From an uncultured Clostridium sp. (GTDB lineage: Bacteria > Bacillota > Clostridia > Lachnospirales > Lachnospiraceae), in contig CAMNRM010000046.1 in NCBI GenBank assembly GCA_946553025.1, positions 1 through 41,121 of the forward strand: a stretch of DNA of 41,121 nucleotides, given 5' to 3'. Below are positions 2,102 through 10,775 of this stretch, one piece after another. Position numbers and translations under genes: made by a program. Under the pieces are notes generated by a model. That model had not been told where the DNA came from, made no database searches, and was given only the letters and a program-made list of their open reading frames with translations. Within the stretch, counting starts at the first letter, position 1. Each line of letters opens with the position of its first letter.

Positions 2102-3598
2102 TCAATCTCCTTTCTTTCCCTTCATCCTTTCCATCCCCATCCGCAGCAGGGGTGAGAAAATACAAAGGATTCCAATTATCATCAGCACGCAGGAAATCGG
2201 CCGGGTGAAAAAGGCAGCCGCACTTCCGGAATACTGGAACGACTTTAACATATTGCTCTCTAAGGTAGGCCCAAGGATAAAGGCCAGAATCAAGGGCGCT
2301 GTAGGCAGTCCGCCGTAACTCATCAATATACCGATGCACACGAACACCAGCATCATCCCGCATTTATAAAGGCTGCTGGAATCCACATAGGCGCTGACGA
2401 AGGAAATAATAATCAATGCCGGATACATATAGTGATAGGGCACCTTTAAAATCAGCGGAAATACCCGCATTCCCAGGGCCTGGAGCACTAAAACCACCAG
2501 GGCGCAGACCATAACGGTCGCAAACATCAGATAAACCACGTTCCCGCTGTTCTTAAATACCATCGGCCCCATCTCCAGTCCGTGGATGGTCAGAGCACCG
2601 ATGAGCAGGGCGGTTGTGGAATCTCCGGGAATCCCCAGAGCCGCCATAGGTATCATCGAACCGCCGATAGCGGCATTATTCGATACCTCGGAAGCCCAGA
2701 TACCGTCCGGACATCCTTTTCCAAACATCTCCGGTGTCTTGGAAGCATTTCTTGCGCTGGAATAGGCAACCAGGTTGGAAAGCCCGGCACCCATGCCCGG
2801 CAGAAAGCCGATGCCCAGTCCGATAGCAAAGGAACGAACGATATTGACCGCCTGTGCAGCGATTTCCTTTACCGTGATTCCCAGTCCCTTAATGGACTTA
2901 GTATCCACGTCCGGAAGTGCACCGAAGCCTTTTCCATATTCTTCCACAATCCTTGCCACGCCAAAGATACCAATCAGGACAATGGTCATGCCAAGACCGC
3001 TCATCAGATACATATTGTCAAAGACAAACCGCGGTTCGGCGTCAATCGGCGAAAAACCTACGGAAGCAAACAAAAGACCGATGGAAGCCGAAGCAAGCCC
3101 CTTAAACATATTTCCTTTAGAAATGGCAAGTACCATAGTAATCGCCACAAAGCACAGGGAAAAATACTCCCACGGCCCCAGGGCAAAGGCGACATCGGCG
3201 ATTTTCTGGCTTAACAGCGCGGCAAAAAGAGCGCTGAAAAACGTTCCCACAAAGGAGGCAACCATACCGATGGCCAGGGCTTTTCCCGCCTTTCCCGACT
3301 GCGCCATAGGATAGCCGTCATAGCAGGTTGCAACGGAAGACGCCGAACCGGGGATTCCCAAAAGCACGGAACCGATAAAGGAACCGGAGCATCCTCCCAC
3401 CCAGAGGGCAATCAGGAAGATAACCGCAGGGCCGGCCTGCATCGAATAGGTCAGCGGCATAAAAAGCATAACCGCCAGTGTACCGGAAAGCCCGGGAATC
3501 GCCCCGAAAATCAAGCCGATAACCGTTGCACCGAACAAAAGCACCAGGTTAAAGGGCTGGACAATCTGGCTCATAATATAGGGTATAAATTCTAACAT
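2102..3598 (-). CDS. tctA: Tripartite tricarboxylate transporter permease, large subunit TctA
   Basis: This 498-residue, highly hydrophobic protein has about 11-12 predicted membrane segments. It carries both TctA hallmark loops: GAIPGLSGTLAVMLFMPLTY near residue 32, and the second half-repeat with LPGMGAGLSNLVAYSSAR, a conserved SNNAA(I)GGSMIPM stretch and LGIPGDSTTALLIGAL. Length is normal for the family (about 500 aa). With TctB it forms the membrane part of a solute-binding-protein-dependent secondary transporter for di- or tricarboxylates and related acids. It follows tctB by 13 bases in the same operon. The actual substrate cannot be read from sequence. Confidence 0.95.
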   Translation of the reverse strand: MLEFIPYIMSQIVQPFNLVLLFGATVIGLIFGAIPGLSGTLAVMLFMPLTYSMQAGPAVIFLIALWVGGCSGSFIGSVLLGIPGSASSVATCYDGYPMAQSGKAGKALAIGMVASFVGTFFSALFAALLSQKIADVAFALGPWEYFSLCFVAITMVLAISKGNMFKGLASASIGLLFASVGFSPIDAEPRFVFDNMYLMSGLGMTIVLIGIFGVARIVEEYGKGFGALPDVDTKSIKGLGITVKEIAAQAVNIVRSFAIGLGIGFLPGMGAGLSNLVAYSSARNASKTPEMFGKGCPDGIWASEVSNNAAIGGSMIPMAALGIPGDSTTALLIGALTIHGLEMGPMVFKNSGNVVYLMFATVMVCALVVLVLQALGMRVFPLILKVPYHYMYPALIIISFVSAYVDSSSLYKCGMMLVFVCIGILMSYGGLPTAPLILAFILGPTLESNMLKSFQYSGSAAAFFTRPISCVLMIIGILCIFSPLLRMGMERMKGKKGD

Positions 3599-3611
3599 CG
3601 CTCTCCCCTCC

Positions 3612-4076
3612 TTATCCGAACAGCATACCGCCCGGCAGGGTTAAGCCGAAGGCGAATACATAGATAACATAAATAATCACGGCTACAGCTACCGAAAAAA
3701 TAATTCTTCCCTTCAGGCTTGTCTGGCTTCCCCGGGCAAACATCGTCGTAAGTATGTATAAAATCACCGGTGTGGCGATAAGGTAGCCGACCACCGTCAT
3801 TGCGGCAATATAGGCGGCAATCACGGCCAGAGTAATGCCGATCCGAATCCATCCGGCCTTCACCATATAGACCTTTTCTTCTTTTTTACTCATCGTCCCA
3901 TTGACCAATATCCCAAGCCCGCAGACCGCAAATCCGAATGCTGCGATGGTCGGCAGCATCCTTGGCCCCGGGTAGGCACCGGTAATGGGGATGGAAAAGG
4001 AGGTTGTCATAATAAATACAACGATCCCAAGAAGAATCAACACTGCACCGGTTAGCTGATCTCTTTTTATCTTCAT
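3612..4076 (-). CDS. tctB: Tripartite tricarboxylate transporter small permease subunit TctB
   Basis: This 154-residue protein has four predicted membrane segments (about residues 9-28, 38-58, 75-98 and 115-148), as expected for the small TctB subunit. The first helix and the following GAYPGPRMLPTIAAFG stretch are characteristic of TctB. It lies between tctC (81 bases upstream) and tctA (13 bases downstream), the canonical order. An AAGGAAGGA ribosome binding site precedes the ATG. Confidence 0.93.
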   Translation of the reverse strand: MKIKRDQLTGAVLILLGIVVFIMTTSFSIPITGAYPGPRMLPTIAAFGFAVCGLGILVNGTMSKKEEKVYMVKAGWIRIGITLAVIAAYIAAMTVVGYLIATPVILYILTTMFARGSQTSLKGRIIFSVAVAVIIYVIYVFAFGLTLPGGMLFG

Positions 4077-4157: not shown

Positions 4158-5150
4158 CTATTTCTTTAACCCAAGTTCCTCAACCACCTCATTAATGCTT
4201 GCCTGCATATCCTGGATGGTCTTTAATCCCTCTTCCTGGCTTAAAAAGGTCATTTCCATGCCGGCAGGAGCCAGGGTTGCTTTTACCTCTTCATTTTCGG
4301 CGGCTGCCGCATAATAATCATGAATCTGCTTTACCAGCTCCGGGTCCATGTTTTTCGGCCCAAGTAAGATAACATTGAGCATCTGGAAGGATAAATCCAC
4401 ACCTAACTCCTCAAAACACGGTACATCGGGAAGCACGGAAGAACGTCCGCCTTCTGCGGTATTGGATACCACCGCCAATGCCTTTGCCTTTCCGGATTCC
4501 ACATACTGCTTGGCCTGGTTGGCATTGACAAGGCAGGCATTAATGCTGTTTCCCACCAATGCAGTTAATTTTTCCGTATCGGAACCGGCTTCCACATACT
4601 TGACTTCAATTCCCGCGGCCTTGGCTAAAAGTCCGGTCTGCACATGGACGGTTCCGCCGGTTTCCACGCCGAACATTAATTCTCCGGGACGGCTCTTTGC
4701 ATCGTTAAGTAAATCATCCAGACTGTTATAAGAAGAATCCCCCGAAACCACCAGGACATTGTTTGCCGGATCTACAGGAACACCTACGGCAATCACACTG
4801 TAATCATCGGCAGCCGACTTGGTAAATACACCGGAAGCGGTTTTAATCAGCATGGTGGTATGGAACTGCATCAGGGTTGAACCGTCCGCCTTTCCTCCTG
4901 CGGTCTTTTCACAGGCAACCATACCGCCGCCGTCCGTGTTATTAACGATGGTCAGCGTGGAACCGGAATCCTTACCCACCTGCGTGGACAATGCCCTTGC
5001 CATAACATCCGTACCGCCTCCGGCTTTTGCCGGAACCTGAATCTCCACACTCTTTGCCCAGCTTCCCGCCTTTGCGCCGCCTCCGCCGCATCCGGCCAGG
5101 GACAATGCCATAATACCTGCCATCACTGCTGCCAACATTTTCTTTTTCAT
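4158..5150 (-). CDS. tctC: Tripartite tricarboxylate transporter substrate-binding lipoprotein TctC
   Basis: This 330-residue extracytoplasmic solute-binding protein starts with MKKKMLAAVMAGIMALSLAGC: a lipoprotein signal with LAGC lipobox followed by a glycine spacer. The mature part has the TctC/Bug pattern: IQVPAKAGGGTDVMARAL near the N terminus, a GTVHVQ loop, LTALVGNSINACLVN, a LPDVPCFEELGVD motif and a helical C terminus. I chose the ATG at 5150 over an upstream in-frame ATG because AAAGGAGAGG stands just before it and the signal peptide begins there. It heads the operon and is divergent from lysR. It captures the acid at the outer membrane face for TctAB. Confidence 0.95.
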   Translation of the reverse strand: MKKKMLAAVMAGIMALSLAGCGGGGAKAGSWAKSVEIQVPAKAGGGTDVMARALSTQVGKDSGSTLTIVNNTDGGGMVACEKTAGGKADGSTLMQFHTTMLIKTASGVFTKSAADDYSVIAVGVPVDPANNVLVVSGDSSYNSLDDLLNDAKSRPGELMFGVETGGTVHVQTGLLAKAAGIEVKYVEAGSDTEKLTALVGNSINACLVNANQAKQYVESGKAKALAVVSNTAEGGRSSVLPDVPCFEELGVDLSFQMLNVILLGPKNMDPELVKQIHDYYAAAAENEEVKATLAPAGMEMTFLSQEEGLKTIQDMQASINEVVEELGLKK

Positions 5151-5202
5151 CCTTTTCCTCTCCTTTGCTTTGTTGATTTTTAATATTTTTTGTTTGTTTT
5201 TC

Positions 5203-5231
5203 TTGAACTCTTTATCTGTTTTGATTATAAT
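5203..5231 (+). promoter_or_regulatory. Sigma-A promoter of the lysR gene
   Basis: TTGAAC (5203-5208), a 17-base spacer and TATAAT (5226-5231) form a near-consensus promoter pointing toward the LysR gene. Its -10 box overlaps the -10 box of the opposite tctC promoter, so the two cannot be occupied at once. Confidence 0.8.
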
Positions 5232-5252
5232 AGACACAATGACTTATTTCAA
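5224..5252 (-). promoter_or_regulatory. Sigma-A promoter of the tct operon
   Basis: On the minus strand TTGAAA (5252-5247), a 17-base spacer and TATAAT (5229-5224) form a near-consensus promoter for tctC. Transcription should begin near 5217. The LysR-type box centred at 5282 is then about 65 bases upstream, the usual recognition-site position for LysR activators. Confidence 0.8.
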
Positions 5253-5273
5253 CTTATGGATTTTTATATTTTA

Positions 5274-5290
5274 TCTTAATCTATTTAAGA
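5274..5290. promoter_or_regulatory. LysR-type regulator binding site (T-N11-A)
   Basis: TCTTAATCTATTTAAGA is a perfect 6-5-6 inverted repeat containing the T-N11-A signature of LysR-type regulators. It lies 14 bases before the lysR start, downstream of the lysR promoter (consistent with autorepression) and about 65 bases upstream of the predicted tctC start site (consistent with activation). Binding by the adjacent LysR is inferred. Confidence 0.65.
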
Positions 5291-5304
5291 CAATAGGAGG
5301 GTTT

Positions 5305-6288
5305 ATGGATTTACGTCAGATTGAAAATATTCTTGCCATTGAACGGGAAGAAAGCATTTCCAGGGCTGCCGAGAAGCTTTACCTTACCCAGTCTGCCCTA
5401 AACCAGCAGCTTCTGCGCCTGGAAAAGGAACTGGGGGTAAAGCTTTTTGAACGAAGGAAGCACAGCATGATTCCCACCTATGCCGGGCGGATTTATCTTG
5501 CCACTGCGCACAGAATGATAGATATGAAACAGGAAACCTACAAGATTATCCATGATATTGCCGAAGAAAATGCAGGAGAAATTGCCATCGCCTATACGCC
5601 GGAGAGAGGATCGCTGATGTTTTCCCAGATCTATCCCTATTTTCACCAGCGCTACCCCCAGATTACCTTCCGTATCCACGAGGCCCGCGTAAAAACGATG
5701 GAACAGCTTGTCCTGCAAAAAGATGTGACGATGGCATTTTGTACCTATGCCGAAGGCTTGAAGCACCCGGATTTGGAATACAGCGATATCGGAAAAGAGC
5801 GGATTATCCTGGGGCTTCCCATCACGCACCCCTTAGCGCACCTGGCCGGGGAGCGAAGCTGGGAAACCTTTCCTGAATTTAACCTGCGCCTGCTTAAAGG
5901 AGAACATTTCGTCCTTTCCTCCCGCGAAACCCGTATCCGCGAGATGACGGACCGCGCCTTTGCCTTGGCAGGCTTTCAGCCCAATGTTCTTTTTGAATCC
6001 ACCAGCACCTCCACCATCGTCAATACCGTGAAAAACCAGGTCTGCCCGGCGTTCTTTCCGCAGTCCTATGTGGAAGCGGATTTCCCCATTGCCTATTTTA
6101 CGGTTTTGCCGGACGATTACTGGATGCGCTGCGCTGCCTACTTAAAAGGTGCTTATCTTACCAAACCCGAAAAATACTTTATTAAGCTTGCCACGCTTTC
6201 CATGCGCGGGGAACTGAAAAACCTTCCCGTTCCCCTGCCCGAACCAAATCAGAATCCTTTACCAACCGATTACAGCCGACCTACGTAA
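5305..6288 (+). CDS. LysR-family transcriptional regulator of the tct operon
   Basis: This 327-residue regulator has an N-terminal winged HTH (residues 1-60: MDLRQIENILAIEREESISR, then AAEKLYLTQSALNQQLLRLE and ELGVKLFERRK) and a periplasmic-binding-protein-like effector domain from about residue 90 (EIAIAYTPERGSLMF). The ATG at 5305 is chosen because GGAGG lies just upstream and the HTH begins at the usual residue 2; longer in-frame extensions run back through the promoter. It is divergent from tctC, the classical arrangement in which the regulator senses the transported acid. The effector is probably the tct substrate (inference). Its stop overlaps a stretch resembling the intergenic repeat. 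Confidence 0.92.
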   Translation: MDLRQIENILAIEREESISRAAEKLYLTQSALNQQLLRLEKELGVKLFERRKHSMIPTYAGRIYLATAHRMIDMKQETYKIIHDIAEENAGEIAIAYTPERGSLMFSQIYPYFHQRYPQITFRIHEARVKTMEQLVLQKDVTMAFCTYAEGLKHPDLEYSDIGKERIILGLPITHPLAHLAGERSWETFPEFNLRLLKGEHFVLSSRETRIREMTDRAFALAGFQPNVLFESTSTSTIVNTVKNQVCPAFFPQSYVEADFPIAYFTVLPDDYWMRCAAYLKGAYLTKPEKYFIKLATLSMRGELKNLPVPLPEPNQNPLPTDYSRPT

Positions 6289-6329
6289 ACAGCAGCTCAT
6301 TCGTTACGGTTCACACGTTCACAGCAACG
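6283..6329 (+). repeat. Palindromic intergenic repeat, copy 2 with adjoining half unit
   Basis: A half unit (ACGTAAACAGCAGC, 6283-6296) is followed by a full unit with core GTTCACACGTTCACAG (6303-6329). Together they fill the gap between the convergent lysR and P-type ATPase genes and abut both stop codons. The inner spacing suggests two hairpins or one longer cruciform. No separate U-tract terminator is seen here. Confidence 0.6.
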
Positions 6330-9026
6330 CTAATTCCTCCCTTCCCGCAAAAGCTTCTGTGCCTGAATAAGAATCGTGGGAAACAGCGCACAGACAAACA
6401 CCGCGCCGACTTCCACCAGCTTTAAATCTGCTGCCATAAAAAGCCGCTGAAGGCCCGGAAGGAACAGTACCCCGGTTAAAAGCAGGACGCCGGCTTCAAA
6501 GGCCATAATACTGTACAGATTGCTTCCCAGACCAAGACGAAGGATGGAATGTGCGCTGCGGCAGTTAAATCCATGGAAAAGCCGTGCCAGTGTAAGGGTG
6601 GTAAATGCCATCGTTGTTGCCACCCTTTCCGGTGTACGCATAAAATTTCCGCCGTTTTCAAAGAAAATCCCTCTTCCGCTCAGAATCGTACTCCCCCCGC
6701 TGCTCATCCCCATGCGGTAAGCCGCCATGGTGCAAAGGGCTATCAGAACACCCTGCACCAGCAAATCTTTCAGAAAATTCCCGTTTAAAATTCCCTCATT
6801 TCCCCTCCGGGGCGGCTGCTTTAAAAGGCCCTCCCCCGGCGGCTCCATGCCGATCGCCAGGGCGGGCAGGGAATCCGTAACCAGGTTGATAAACAAAAGA
6901 TGCACCGGAAGAAAAGGCATGGGAAGGCCCGCAAGCGTTGCATACAGCACGCAGAATATCCCCGCCATATTTCCCGAAAGAAGAAATCCAATGGCATTTT
7001 TAATATTCTGGTACACATTTCTTCCGTTGGCAACCGCCTGGATAATGGTGGAAAAATGGTCGTCTGCCAGAATCATCGCCGCTGCCTCCCGGCTGACCTG
7101 GGTTCCGCTCTTTCCCATGGCAATGCCGATATCCGCCGTTTTCAGCGCCGGCCCGTCGTTCACCCCGTCGCCGGTCATCGCGGTAATCCGCCCTTTTTTC
7201 TGCCATGCCTCCACTATTCTCAGCTTATGCTGGGGCGTAACCCGGGCATAGACATCGATCCGGTCGAGTTTCTCCGAAAGTTCCTTTTCCCCCATCTTTT
7301 CTAATTCCGGCCCGGTAACCACCAGTCCCCCCGGCTCTAAGATCCCGGCTTTGCGGGCAATGGAGGCCGCCGTCACCGGATGATCTCCCGTAATCATTAC
7401 CGGGCGAATTCCTGCGCCCCTGGCTGCTGCCACGGCTGCCTTTGACTCCGGGCGGAGCGGATCGGTAAGCGCTGCCATCCCTAAAAAGGTCAGATCGTGT
7501 TCCCAATCCCGGAAACCTCCTCCCTTCTTTTTGCTTTTTTCACGCCTCTCTTCCTCGCCTTCTTCTCCCCACTCCTTCCCCTCCGGAAGTTTACGGCAGG
7601 CAAAGGCAAGAACACGCATCCCGTCCCTTCCCCACTGCTGGCTCTGCTCCTTTAATTTTCGGATTTCCTCCCCGGATAAATCCTTTACCCCGCTGTTTCC
7701 ATAGATTGTTTTGCAGCAGGAAAGCACGGACTCCAACGCACCCTTGGCAAATATCCACTCGCTTCCGTTTTCTCTGTCCAGGCACCACACGCTCATCCGT
7801 TTGCGCCCGGAATCAAAAGGCTTCTCCCCCTTTCGCGGGAACTTCTGCCGGATGAGTTCAGGTAAAAAGCCCGCTTCCTTTGCCCCCAGGTAGAGGGCGG
7901 CTTCGGTGGGTTCCCCGCTCTGTTCCGATGCATTATTGGCCAAAACGGCAGCCCTCCACAGAAGTTCTTCCCCTTCTTCGGATGTTCCGGGGCAGTAGGT
8001 TTCCTCGGTCTGCATCCGGTTCTGGGTAAGTGTCCCTGTTTTATCCGTGCAGATCACCGACACACATCCCAGGCTTTCCACCGCCTTTAAATCCTTGATA
8101 ATCGCATGTTCCCTCGCCATTTTCTGGGTTCCCATGGCCTGGACAATGGTTACAATCGATCCTAATGCCTCCGGGATTGCCGCCACAGCCAGAGCCACGG
8201 CAAACATTACGGCATTTAACAGCGACTCGCCGCGGTAGAGATCCAGCCAGAATACAATCACGCAGACCACTAAAATTCCTATGGCAAGCCTGCCGGAAAA
8301 CTGTTCCAGACTTATTTCTAAAGGCGTCCTCTTTTCCTCGGTCTTATTCATCAGTCCGGCAATCTGCCCAAGTTCGGATTCCATCCCCACAGCCGTGACC
8401 ACAGCCACGCCGCGCCCTCCGGTAATCTGGGAGCCGGAAAAAATCATATTGGTGCGGCTGGCCAGGGGAACATCCTCTTCTTTAAGTACGCGGATTTCCT
8501 TTTCCACCTCCTGGGATTCCCCGGTAAGGGAACTCTCGTTAAGGCGAAGATCCACAGCCTCCAAAAGCCTTCCGTCCGCCGGTGCCAGATCTCCGCATTC
8601 CAGCACAAGGATATCGCCCACAACCACATTCTCCACCGGAATCTTCTCCCGTTTTCCCTCCCGGATAACCTTGGCCTCCGGTGCTGATAAAGCCCGAAGA
8701 CCTTCTAACGATTTCTGGGCCTTCTGATGCTCCACGGTTCCCAGCACGGCATTTAACAGCAGCACCGCCACGATAACCACGGCGCTTTCCCCATTATCCG
8801 TCATGGCGGAAATCACGGCCGCCGCAATTAAGATCCACACCAGCAAATCCTGAAACTGTTCTAAAAATACCCGCAGACAGCTTTTTTTCTTCTTTTCCTG
8901 AATTTTATTCTTTCCGTTTTCCTTAAGCCTTTTTTCCGCCTCCTGCTTAGAAAGTCCCTGCCGGCTGCTTCCTAACTCCTCTAACACCCTCTGCGAATTC
9001 CATCGATACCACGCTGTCCTCTCCAT
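6330..9026 (-). CDS. Cation-transporting P-type ATPase (Ca2+-type, P-II)
   Basis: This protein of about 898 residues has all P-II domains in order: N-terminal cation-ATPase domain, TGES actuator motif (about 168-171), TM4 signature VAAIPEALG with the site-II glutamate (about 286), phosphorylation site ICTDKTGTLT (Asp about 328), a KGA nucleotide-binding motif, TGDGVNDGPALK hinge, and LLFINLVTDSLPALAIG in TM6. It most resembles calcium exporters. In TM5 the segment SGNMAGI has glycine where SERCA pumps carry the site-I glutamate, suggesting a single-site pump like PMCA/PMR1. I prefer the ATG at 9026 because GGGAGGGG precedes it; an in-frame ATG at 9059 lacks a ribosome binding site. It is monocistronic and convergent with lysR. 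Confidence 0.93.
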   Translation of the reverse strand: MERTAWYRWNSQRVLEELGSSRQGLSKQEAEKRLKENGKNKIQEKKKKSCLRVFLEQFQDLLVWILIAAAVISAMTDNGESAVVIVAVLLLNAVLGTVEHQKAQKSLEGLRALSAPEAKVIREGKREKIPVENVVVGDILVLECGDLAPADGRLLEAVDLRLNESSLTGESQEVEKEIRVLKEEDVPLASRTNMIFSGSQITGGRGVAVVTAVGMESELGQIAGLMNKTEEKRTPLEISLEQFSGRLAIGILVVCVIVFWLDLYRGESLLNAVMFAVALAVAAIPEALGSIVTIVQAMGTQKMAREHAIIKDLKAVESLGCVSVICTDKTGTLTQNRMQTEETYCPGTSEEGEELLWRAAVLANNASEQSGEPTEAALYLGAKEAGFLPELIRQKFPRKGEKPFDSGRKRMSVWCLDRENGSEWIFAKGALESVLSCCKTIYGNSGVKDLSGEEIRKLKEQSQQWGRDGMRVLAFACRKLPEGKEWGEEGEEERREKSKKKGGGFRDWEHDLTFLGMAALTDPLRPESKAAVAAARGAGIRPVMITGDHPVTAASIARKAGILEPGGLVVTGPELEKMGEKELSEKLDRIDVYARVTPQHKLRIVEAWQKKGRITAMTGDGVNDGPALKTADIGIAMGKSGTQVSREAAAMILADDHFSTIIQAVANGRNVYQNIKNAIGFLLSGNMAGIFCVLYATLAGLPMPFLPVHLLFINLVTDSLPALAIGMEPPGEGLLKQPPRRGNEGILNGNFLKDLLVQGVLIALCTMAAYRMGMSSGGSTILSGRGIFFENGGNFMRTPERVATTMAFTTLTLARLFHGFNCRSAHSILRLGLGSNLYSIMAFEAGVLLLTGVLFLPGLQRLFMAADLKLVEVGAVFVCALFPTILIQAQKLLREGRN

Positions 9027-9142: not shown

Positions 9143-9151
9143 TGGTATAAT
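9143..9151 (+). promoter_or_regulatory. Extended -10 promoter of the DUF4869-ATPase pair
   Basis: TGGTATAAT is a perfect extended -10 element (TGnTATAAT) about 80 bases before the DUF4869 start. The -35 region at the right spacing (TTTTCT) is poor, as tolerated by extended -10 promoters. It marks the left border of the AT-rich island. Confidence 0.65.
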
Positions 9152-9231
9152 TTACTTTATTACTGGATATTCCTGTTTTATCTATAGATTATTTAGTCTT
9201 TTTATTTTTCGTTAAGAAAGGAGAAATCAAT

Positions 9232-9669
9232 ATGTTGAACATCTTTTTTGGTGACATGAAGGACGTGATTTTTAATACACCGGTATATTTCAAAAACGTG
9301 TATCATGACGAGTGGATAACAGCACCATTATCGGTGGAGATGATTGCGGATGTCGATAAATCAAAAGTCATTGATAGTGGTGTAATCGACAGTCCGGTAC
9401 TCGGGAAAATTCCGCCGACAGGTTTGTCTGGCGGAGTAAAGACATTGATATTAATTGAAAACAGGCCGGACAAAGTATTTAACGCCACGAATTGTGGTAA
9501 TAATTGTGCGAAGTGGCTTTTGAGGATCGCAGAGAAAAAGGACGTGACAATTAATCTTAGATATATGATGAATTTTGGAAAGGGAAATTTTGATATCAGG
9601 GTCTTAAATAATGACCAGGTTGTTCACTGTATGGAGGAACTGGTTTCAGCGGCGATTCAGTATGTGTAG
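9232..9669 (+). CDS. DUF4869 domain protein
   Basis: This 145-residue protein matches my recollection of DUF4869: it opens MLNIFFGDMKD, continues with NTPVYFKNVYHDEWI, an IDSPVLG motif, LSGGVKTLILIENRP, and CGNNCAKWLLRIAEKKDVTI in the middle. The two cysteines of CGNNC are close enough to bind metal or form a disulfide, but nothing proves it. There is no signal peptide or membrane segment. An AAAGGAG site precedes the ATG. The ATPase gene follows after 9 bases, so the two are co-transcribed and translated together. Function is unknown. Base composition is clearly AT-richer than the flanking core genes, indicating transfer. Confidence 0.85.
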   Translation: MLNIFFGDMKDVIFNTPVYFKNVYHDEWITAPLSVEMIADVDKSKVIDSGVIDSPVLGKIPPTGLSGGVKTLILIENRPDKVFNATNCGNNCAKWLLRIAEKKDVTINLRYMMNFGKGNFDIRVLNNDQVVHCMEELVSAAIQYV

Positions 9670-9678
9670 GTGGGGAAA

Positions 9679-10656
9679 ATGAAAGGTAGCATTCATATCA
9701 TTGTACAAAATGAGAGGATAAAGTATGAATTTGTCCTTCGGAGGAATCTTACGATTATCAGAGGAAACAGCGCGACTGGAAAAACAACATTAATAGACAT
9801 GATAAGGGAATATAAAAGCCTTGGTGAGGAAAGCGGGGTTGAATTGTCTTGCGAAAAAGAGTGTGTTGTGATTGAGGGAAATGGATGGGAGAAACAGTTA
9901 TCGGATGTGAGGAAAACGGTCGTGTTTGTGGATGAAGGCAATCGTTTTGTGTCATCCGTGGAGTTTGCACGTTTCATCCAGGGTACAGACAATTATTATG
10001 TATTGGTAACCCGGGAAGGACTTTCAACATTACCTTATAGCGTGGAAGAAATCTATGGAATTCGTTCATCGGGAAAATATGGCGGATTAAAACCCTTATA
10101 TCATGAAATATACCAACTGTATACAGACAAGATGGATATACGGGATTTGACACCAAAGAAAGTTATTACAGAAGACTCAAACGCAGGACATGAGTTTTTT
10201 GCGAGTATGTGTAATGAAATAGGAATCGAATGTGTTTCAGCGGCTGGAAAATCCAATATAGGTTTAGAATTATTAAAATGTAAAGATGAAGACGTTGTTG
10301 TGATTGCAGATGGCGCAGCATTTGGTTCTGAGATAGAAAAGGTTCTGGAAGTAATAGGACAAAAGAAACAAGTGGCTCTATATTTGCCAGAATCCTTTGA
10401 ATGGTTGATTCTGGTGTCGGACGTGTTAAATGATAAAGAAATAAGAATGATGAGTGAGAACTGGGGAACCTATATTGAAAGCAGTCAATATTTTTCGTGG
10501 GAACGGTTTTTTACAGAGTTATTGATAGAAAAGTCGCAAGATAGTTATTTGAAATACAATAAGAAAAAATTAAATAAGGCGTATTTGACGGCGGTAGTTA
10601 AGCGTAAGATTTTAAAACAAGTGAAGTGGTGGAAAGTTAAGTTCTCTATAAATTAA
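9679..10656 (+). CDS. P-loop ATPase partner of DUF4869, possible Toprim-like C-terminal half
   Basis: This protein of about 325 residues has a Walker A near the start (RGNSATGKTT), followed by a beta-rich segment and a Walker B (KTVVFVDEGNRF). It lacks an ABC signature or long coiled coil, so it is a minimal P-loop NTPase. From about residue 155 the pattern changes: TEDSNAGHEFF (acidic residue plus helix), an AAGKSN turn, VVVIADGAAFGSEI (hydrophobic strand ending in acidic residue and glycine), then LPESFEWLIL. This order is reminiscent of a Toprim fold, as in OLD-family nucleases, but the DxD is incomplete. A basic C-terminal tail (KKKLNK..VVKRKILKQVKWWK) could bind nucleic acid. The ATG at 9679 follows GGTGGGG; a GTG at 9670 is the alternative start. 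Gene is last in the pair. Confidence 0.8.
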   Translation: MKGSIHIIVQNERIKYEFVLRRNLTIIRGNSATGKTTLIDMIREYKSLGEESGVELSCEKECVVIEGNGWEKQLSDVRKTVVFVDEGNRFVSSVEFARFIQGTDNYYVLVTREGLSTLPYSVEEIYGIRSSGKYGGLKPLYHEIYQLYTDKMDIRDLTPKKVITEDSNAGHEFFASMCNEIGIECVSAAGKSNIGLELLKCKDEDVVVIADGAAFGSEIEKVLEVIGQKKQVALYLPESFEWLILVSDVLNDKEIRMMSENWGTYIESSQYFSWERFFTELLIEKSQDSYLKYNKKKLNKAYLTAVVKRKILKQVKWWKVKFSIN

Positions 10657-10696
10657 ATTGTTCCTGAACCCCTTTTTTATGTAATGATAAAAAAAT

Positions 10697-10738
10697 AAAC
10701 CGATGGTTAAGACAACAACTTGTCAAAACCATCGGTTT
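10697..10738. terminator. Bidirectional hairpin terminator
   Basis: Outer arms AAACCGATGGTT and AACCATCGGTTT are perfect 12-base complements, with an inner GACAA/TTGTC stem and a CAAC loop: a 42-base near-perfect hairpin. On the minus strand it runs into ATTTTTTTATC and ends the surface-protein gene; on the plus strand the T-run is weaker. It lies between two convergent genes. Confidence 0.85.
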
Positions 10739-10775
10739 GTTAGATTTCAAGATTATATTTTAAAGTTTTATTTGG

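Follow-up and report, generated by a model that had tools for sequence, protein, structure and literature searches.

A mobile DUF4869 cassette with a possible split ABC-type ATPase and a candidate Toprim-like effector

The window examined in this study is a stretch of 41,121 nucleotides (contig CAMNRM010000046.1, forward strand) from an uncultured Clostridium sp. of the Lachnospiraceae (assembly GCA_946553025.1). An earlier note, made from its sequence, had pointed to a pair of open reading frames (ORFs) with 9-base spacing, and both were found on the plus strand. The first (component A, 9232-9669, 145 amino acids) encodes a DUF4869 protein. The second (9679-10656, 325 amino acids from its ATG, aligned with 21 other fusions) encodes a small P-loop ATPase (component B) fused to a putative Toprim-like domain (component C, 10123-10653, plus strand). 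The spacing refers to the ATG at 9679; an alternative GTG start at 9670 would give a protein of 328 amino acids. The cassette is tentatively read here as a split ATPase switch, formed by A and B, that might gate C.

Conserved motifs of the three components

Component A is a full member of the DUF4869 family (PF16163, E-value 4.4e-58, 195.1 bits against a gathering cut-off of 28.9), with no match in NCBIfam, PHROGs or PADLOC at E-values up to 1. It contains an ABC-signature-like motif, LSGGVK (residues 65-70; 9424-9441, plus strand), located by pattern and by hhalign. The strict form [LIMV][SAT]xGxK was present in 69 of 72 A proteins, the three exceptions being LSGGVQ, LSGSVK and LSGGLQ. A second motif, CGxN (CGNN at residues 88-91; 9493-9504, plus strand), was found as [CM]GxN in 71 of the 72 and is placed, by our own reading, at the Walker B/D-loop position. 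No A protein carried a Walker A motif (GxxxxGK[ST], 0/72). Alignment of A with a set of AAA_21 sequences gave an E-value of 0.003 at the signature region with a probability of 10%, compared with 0.71 for the reversed control, and one of 200 shuffles was as good; we regard the similarity as a motif resemblance. Among the 50 rows listed for a structure search with the DUF4869 model, 40 were ABC, SMC, RecN or GajA ATPases and 6 were Csn2, by our count, and a sequence search of solved structures with A returned no informative relative. The possibility that SGGVKT of DUF4869 is a degenerate Walker A was considered and rejected, as the motif opens a helix in the model (where confidence is low), aligns with AAA_21 signatures, and belongs to a family in which no Walker A was detected. 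No paper on DUF4869 was found in the literature searched, and novelty is judged against that literature and PADLOC-DB 2023. The earlier note had proposed DUF4869 as regulator, sensor or antitoxin, a role that would now be refined to that of a P-loop-less ABC-like partner.

The Walker motifs reported earlier for the second protein were confirmed in B, which is about 140 amino acids long. The Walker A motif GNSATGKT (residues 29-36; 9763-9786, plus strand) occurred in 62 of 64 B proteins, and in the Walker B motif VVFVDEG (residues 81-87; 9919-9939, plus strand) D85 was invariant in alignments A1 and A7 and E86 in alignment A7. The signature pattern used for A was found in none of the 64 B proteins, and a looser LSxG-like string followed Walker A in 6 of them. 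The ABC hallmarks were in this way divided, with Walker A and Walker B kept on B and the signature-like motif on A. Over 43 columns that surround Walker A, B aligned with the AAA_21 set at an E-value of 4.4e-7 and with an OLD set at 5.6e-6; the reversed controls gave 0.36 and 0.17, respectively. Weak matches to nSTAND3, AAA_22 and AAA_14 were obtained for B besides weak matches of the ABC kind, and the structural rows for residues 4-127 included ABC, MutS and p97 chains. B may also be of STAND/AAA+ type, a reading that remains a candidate since the comparison covered the AAA_21 and OLD sets, in the Walker A region alone. One search of solved structures with B gave P-loop matches, and another gave nothing below an E-value of 0.2. 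The whole fusion protein matched no Pfam or NCBIfam family above the curated cut-off; PHROGs and PADLOC yielded weak partial matches, of which LmuB (E-value 7.5e-5, residues 5-42) was the best.

Three acidic positions were conserved in C (all on the plus strand). E165-D166 (10171-10176) are candidate metal-binding acids after strand 1, and 51 of the 52 C domains have ED close to their start; D211 (10309-10311), in a DGA after strand 3, corresponds to an aspartate in all 52; and F240-E241 of PESFEW (10396-10401) belong to an FE/IE-type pattern found in 51. The strings TEDSNAGHEFF and VVVIADGAAFG, noted earlier in the C-terminal half, are present. Alignment of C with a DUF4435 set gave E-values of 0.004-0.005 over 87-88 columns at an HH-suite probability of only 7-8%, with none of 200 column shuffles as good and with E, G, D and FE in the same order. 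Profile comparison with the OLD set gave E-values of 0.13 and 0.013 in two runs, again with 0/200 shuffles as good. The reference sets were small (18 AAA_21, 8 DUF4435 and 8 OLD sequences); during their collection PF14491 was found in 2/150 and 9/348 genomes and PF20469 in 16/61. A sequence search of solved structures with C gave no informative relative.

Linkage, mobility and selection

In the window's own genome, PF16163 gave 15 matches, 11 of them over the cut-off, and a wider profile built from 14 own A proteins gave 18, one a fragment (model positions 2-42), leaving 17 loci; PF16163 misses diverged copies. An ATPase-part profile gave 20 matches, comprising 17 beside the 17 A loci and three weak ones elsewhere. 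In a scripted tally, a component was counted as whole when one open frame covered its profile to 85% or more (A and B) or to 60% or more (C). By this measure B stood beside A at all 17 own loci (whole in 15), of which 8 had a whole C, 3 a partial one (one of these at a contig end) and 6 none. Outside the own genome, 40 loci were examined: for 39 of the 57 further positive genomes of the family sample, and for one genome of the same genus, the locus with the best A match was taken. B was present in 35 of them (whole in 32), A was alone in 5 (one, L112, lying 461 bases from a contig end), and C was whole in 30, partial in 5 and absent from 5. At 23 further loci B was present in 20. The co-occurrence of both genes, which the earlier note had put forward as a check, was thus supported; the loci outside the own genome were found through A, and cannot show how often B occurs without A.

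The genes occurred in the orders A-[BC], [BC]-A, A-B-C and C-A-B. The orders with a separate C identify it as a third part, which is fused to B in the window. Separate C proteins at L024 (5072-5863), L027 (4466-5281), L028 (2740-3303) and L031 (4821-5657) have a C-terminal cysteine cluster (e.g. DCxC) that is absent from the fused C of the window. A further gene set lies upstream of the own-genome cassette at L031 (G000 contig C13, 1864-3719). It encodes a 181-amino-acid P-loop protein and a 292-amino-acid protein in which FEDS and DLDD motifs occur, and seems to be related to the B and C pair, its first gene being a different one. At L021 (G000 contig C71) a gene read as nucleoside-phosphorylase-like (3186-3965, minus strand) lies 21 bases after a [BC]-A cassette, on the same strand.

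Among 299 genomes sampled from the bacterial family to which the own genome belongs, matches occurred in 58, the own genome included, and the other 57 held 1 to 5 matches each. In phylum samples, which hold few members of the family, the own genome was the only positive (1/398 with PF16163 and 1/378 with the wider profile). The pair was also found in plasmid-collection records of Ruminococcus albus 7, Collinsella aerofaciens and Agathobacter rectalis (one record), with one R. albus B+C copy annotated as 'translation initiation factor 2', and on five fecal contigs deposited as UNVERIFIED phage, the phage status being the depositor's label. On virus contig L081/L091 the cassette lies beside integrase-like frames; at L091 these are at 4990-5457 and 7333-8055, on either side of the cassette, with long stretches common to both by eye. 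On virus contig L092 (IMGVR_UViG_3300028797_000159), whose genes include RtcB and tRNA-His guanylyltransferase, a DUF4869 frame at 6001-6453 is interrupted by one in-frame stop at a usually-Trp position, and B was not found beside this frame. A recoded phage was considered and rejected: translation table 4 leaves the frame closed, and it is therefore read as a damaged copy.

The window cassette was 85-89% identical in DNA to L001, L002 and L003, from 9217 or 9229 to 10636 of the window; the homology starts at 9217 with L003 and at 9229 with L001, while L002 starts at a contig end. Close pairs were defined among all fetched loci by a cassette match of at least 78% over at least 500 bases, and a flanking match by at least 250 bases. 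Sixteen of the 17 close pairs had no common flanking DNA, in agreement with the variable locations expected from the earlier note. Pairs from different genera without common flanks included L126/L128 (87.8% over 1481 bases), L128/L129 (84.6% over 1549) and L083/L098 (78% over 1402). The exception, L001/L004 (97.5% identity), shared seven flanking blocks and is therefore taken as the same region of related assemblies. The L004 cassette is decayed: the near-identical copy is broken (7421-8485), and its ATPase frame runs into the presumed end of a type I restriction subunit. Across all similarity levels, a flanking match accompanied the cassette match in 3 of 399 pairs. Judged from these sequence comparisons, the cassette is horizontally mobile, and relatives of it have moved between genera as genes alone. 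Transposon ends were suspected from L001 and L003, in which the shared sequence extends about 40-60 bases upstream of the genes and about 45 downstream; terminal inverted repeats were not seen in two further groups, each of five cassettes, no element termini were found, and the idea was dropped.

Between close relatives the ratio of non-synonymous to synonymous substitution rates (dN/dS) ranged from 0.04 to 0.12 in A, from 0.04 to 0.20 in B and from 0.04 to 0.24 in C; in the A-B-C group some dS values were above 1 and saturated. For the A gene of the window it was 0.04 against L001 and 0.06 against L003. By these estimates the parts of the cassette are under purifying selection, and the cassette is more than a chance arrangement. 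In a tree of 76 A proteins, based on few columns and with long own branches, the 16 own rows needed 9 label changes, at least 7 of them forced by starred branches, compared with 14.9 for shuffled labels (0/500 as low). The own copies appear to represent several lineages that are partly clustered, two groups, of 5 and 4 rows, being made up of own copies only.

Flanking features and genomic context

A ribosome-binding-site-like AAAGGAG (9217-9223, plus strand) was read from the sequence 5' of the DUF4869 gene. The extended -10 promoter proposed earlier corresponds to TGGTATAAT (9143-9151, plus strand), which is present as a pattern match but is a weak candidate: the pattern has 3 matches in the whole window against 1.41 expected by chance, and a -35/-10 scan did not report it. 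The hairpin that the earlier note had assigned to the cassette as a terminator also exists (10694-10741; arms 10694-10715 and 10720-10741, 86% complementary). As its T-run is on the minus-strand side, it is read as serving at least the convergent minus-strand gene, which encodes choline-binding repeats. A terminator scan of both strands reported none, and that assignment was not upheld. The AT-richness claimed for the cassette (GC content 0.35-0.40) differs from the left neighbour, a cation P-type ATPase gene (0.51-0.58), but not from the right flank with the choline-binding-repeat gene, which is equally AT-rich (0.30-0.44).

For a wider view of context, neighbour ORFs of the 40 loci (150 of 153) and control ORFs taken in the same genomes (146 of 154) were searched with PADLOC at an E-value of 1e-15, leaving out 3 neighbour ORFs, 8 long control ORFs and one control region without an ORF. 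Neighbours matched 89 families and controls 39, of which the best 25 of each were considered. The neighbour matches included type III CRISPR proteins (Cas10, Csm6-like, Cas6), type II restriction-modification, AbiEi, DpdF and AriA (2 members), none of which was among the 25 of 39 control families; the controls matched mad3, mad2, PDC and DndA/SspA. Since a protein can match several models and generic families occurred in both sets (mad3, for example, with 4 case and 6 control members), no statistic is claimed, and a strong defence-island link was set aside in favour of a modest one. HpaII endonuclease and Schlafen AlbA_2 were among the 25 of 170 neighbour Pfam families listed. Near three own copies there are ORFs which we take to be BrxL-, AbiEii- and AbiEi-like, and the L001 and L004 region holds type I restriction gene fragments.

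Interpretation and comparison with known systems

We consider, with slightly less than even confidence, that this is a three-part mobile cassette in which a Toprim-like effector is gated by a split A-B ATPase switch, the whole having a part in conflict similar to that of OLD or PARIS. A would be a P-loop-less descendant of an ABC- or OLD-type ATPase that pairs with B, the Walker motifs of B and the signature of A closing one composite ATP site. Opening and closing of the A-B clamp with ATP would restrain or trigger C, a Toprim-like (DUF4435/OLD-like) domain that might cut or bind nucleic acid, and the outcome could be anti-phage, abortive or addiction, comparable to OLD and PARIS. The predicted split switch is supported by the motifs together with weak profile and structure evidence; effector activity and a defence role are what we infer. 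Several observations weigh against this proposal. No DxD followed strand 3 in any of the 52 C domains. The model of C was poor, with predicted local distance difference test (pLDDT) values of 58-74 over residues 161-210 and under 55 beyond. Its best structural rows were receiver and designed Rossmann folds, and housekeeping neighbours were numerous (RecA, GcpE, triosephosphate isomerase and topoisomerase, among the same 25 of 170 Pfam families). The ATPase-Toprim order put forward in the earlier note is thus favoured by the comparison of C with DUF4435, and weakened by the missing DxD and the poor model. The strand and helix order of C fits Toprim within that low-confidence model; no Toprim chain was among the 50 structural rows listed for the B+C model, a result with which the fold is still possible. 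The broader proposal is more doubtful, though worth stating: an ABC ATPase would be split between DUF4869 and its partner and would control a Toprim-like effector whose acidic site has been rewritten. This would be an ATPase-effector conflict system of a new class, one that moved between genera as bare genes and of which one gut genome has gathered 17 copies of divergent types.

An addiction cassette of the toxin-antitoxin kind, in which A and B hold a toxin C inactive and which spreads by addiction and not by host defence, is a possibility to which we give limited credence. The transfer of the genes alone, the solitary cassettes that adjoin housekeeping genes and the 17 divergent copies in one genome would all fit such an element, as would a whole B without a whole C at seven own loci (L019, L020, L023 at a contig end, L025, L026, L029 and L032). 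Of the 40 other loci, however, 8 lacked a whole B and 10 a whole C, a loss that is hardly lopsided, and three conserved parts with an ATPase exceed the needs of a usual toxin-antitoxin pair. A reading that we consider unlikely is that C, rather than being a nuclease, is a domain of receiver- or Rossmann-like type that acts as a sensor or binds a ligand, and that the cassette serves as an ATPase module for regulation, without a part in conflict. The structural rows that suggest this come from the poor model of C, the DUF4435 profile match keeps the same order of E, G, D and FE, and horizontal transfer with frequent decay would be unusual for core regulation.

PARIS consists of the ABC ATPase AriA and the Toprim nuclease AriB, the latter presumably a DUF4435 protein. 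The cassette could be a true, class 4-like member of the PARIS/OLD group in miniature, with diverged AriA/AriB or OLD components, but we find this improbable. As PMC10568477 describes for PARIS, the cassette combines an ATPase with a Toprim-like part, either in separate genes or in a fusion; C aligns to DUF4435 proteins (E-value 0.004), and PADLOC gave a weak AriAB match. That match (E-value 0.0027) covers residues 21-55 of the B+C protein only, and a Pfam search of this protein found neither DUF4435 nor an OLD Toprim domain, so that homology to AriA/AriB was not established. The cassette also differs from PARIS in its minimal B of about 140 amino acids without the signature pattern, in the conserved DUF4869 partner, which is extra, and in the lack of DxD. 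Ordinary unrelated neighbours, a DUF gene beside a stray P-loop gene, would fit the empty PADLOC result for A and the weak partial matches for B, but are already refuted by the linkage (17/17, 35/40 and 20/23).

If the split-switch proposal is true, a Pfam domain of unknown function would gain a testable molecular role, that of supplying the signature to an ABC-type switch, and immunity of the OLD/PARIS kind would gain a minimal split form. With the signature-like motif kept on a partner, the gating of Toprim effectors could be approached with two small proteins. The contrast between 17 loci here and 1 to 5 matches in each of the other 57 positive genomes sampled would also raise the question of why so many divergent versions were gathered.

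The cassette resembles the OLD family (OLD, Gabija GajA and retron OLD) in having an N-terminal P-loop ATPase and a C-terminal domain of Toprim order in the fused chain. According to PMC7049728, class 1 OLD proteins have a degenerate ABC signature and a class 2 protein lacks it, whereas the signature-like motif of the cassette is conserved and lies on a separate small protein. With the ATPase heads of ABC, SMC and RecN proteins, DUF4869 would share this motif and the suggested fold order, but it differs from them in that Walker A is missing from all 72 DUF4869-like proteins.
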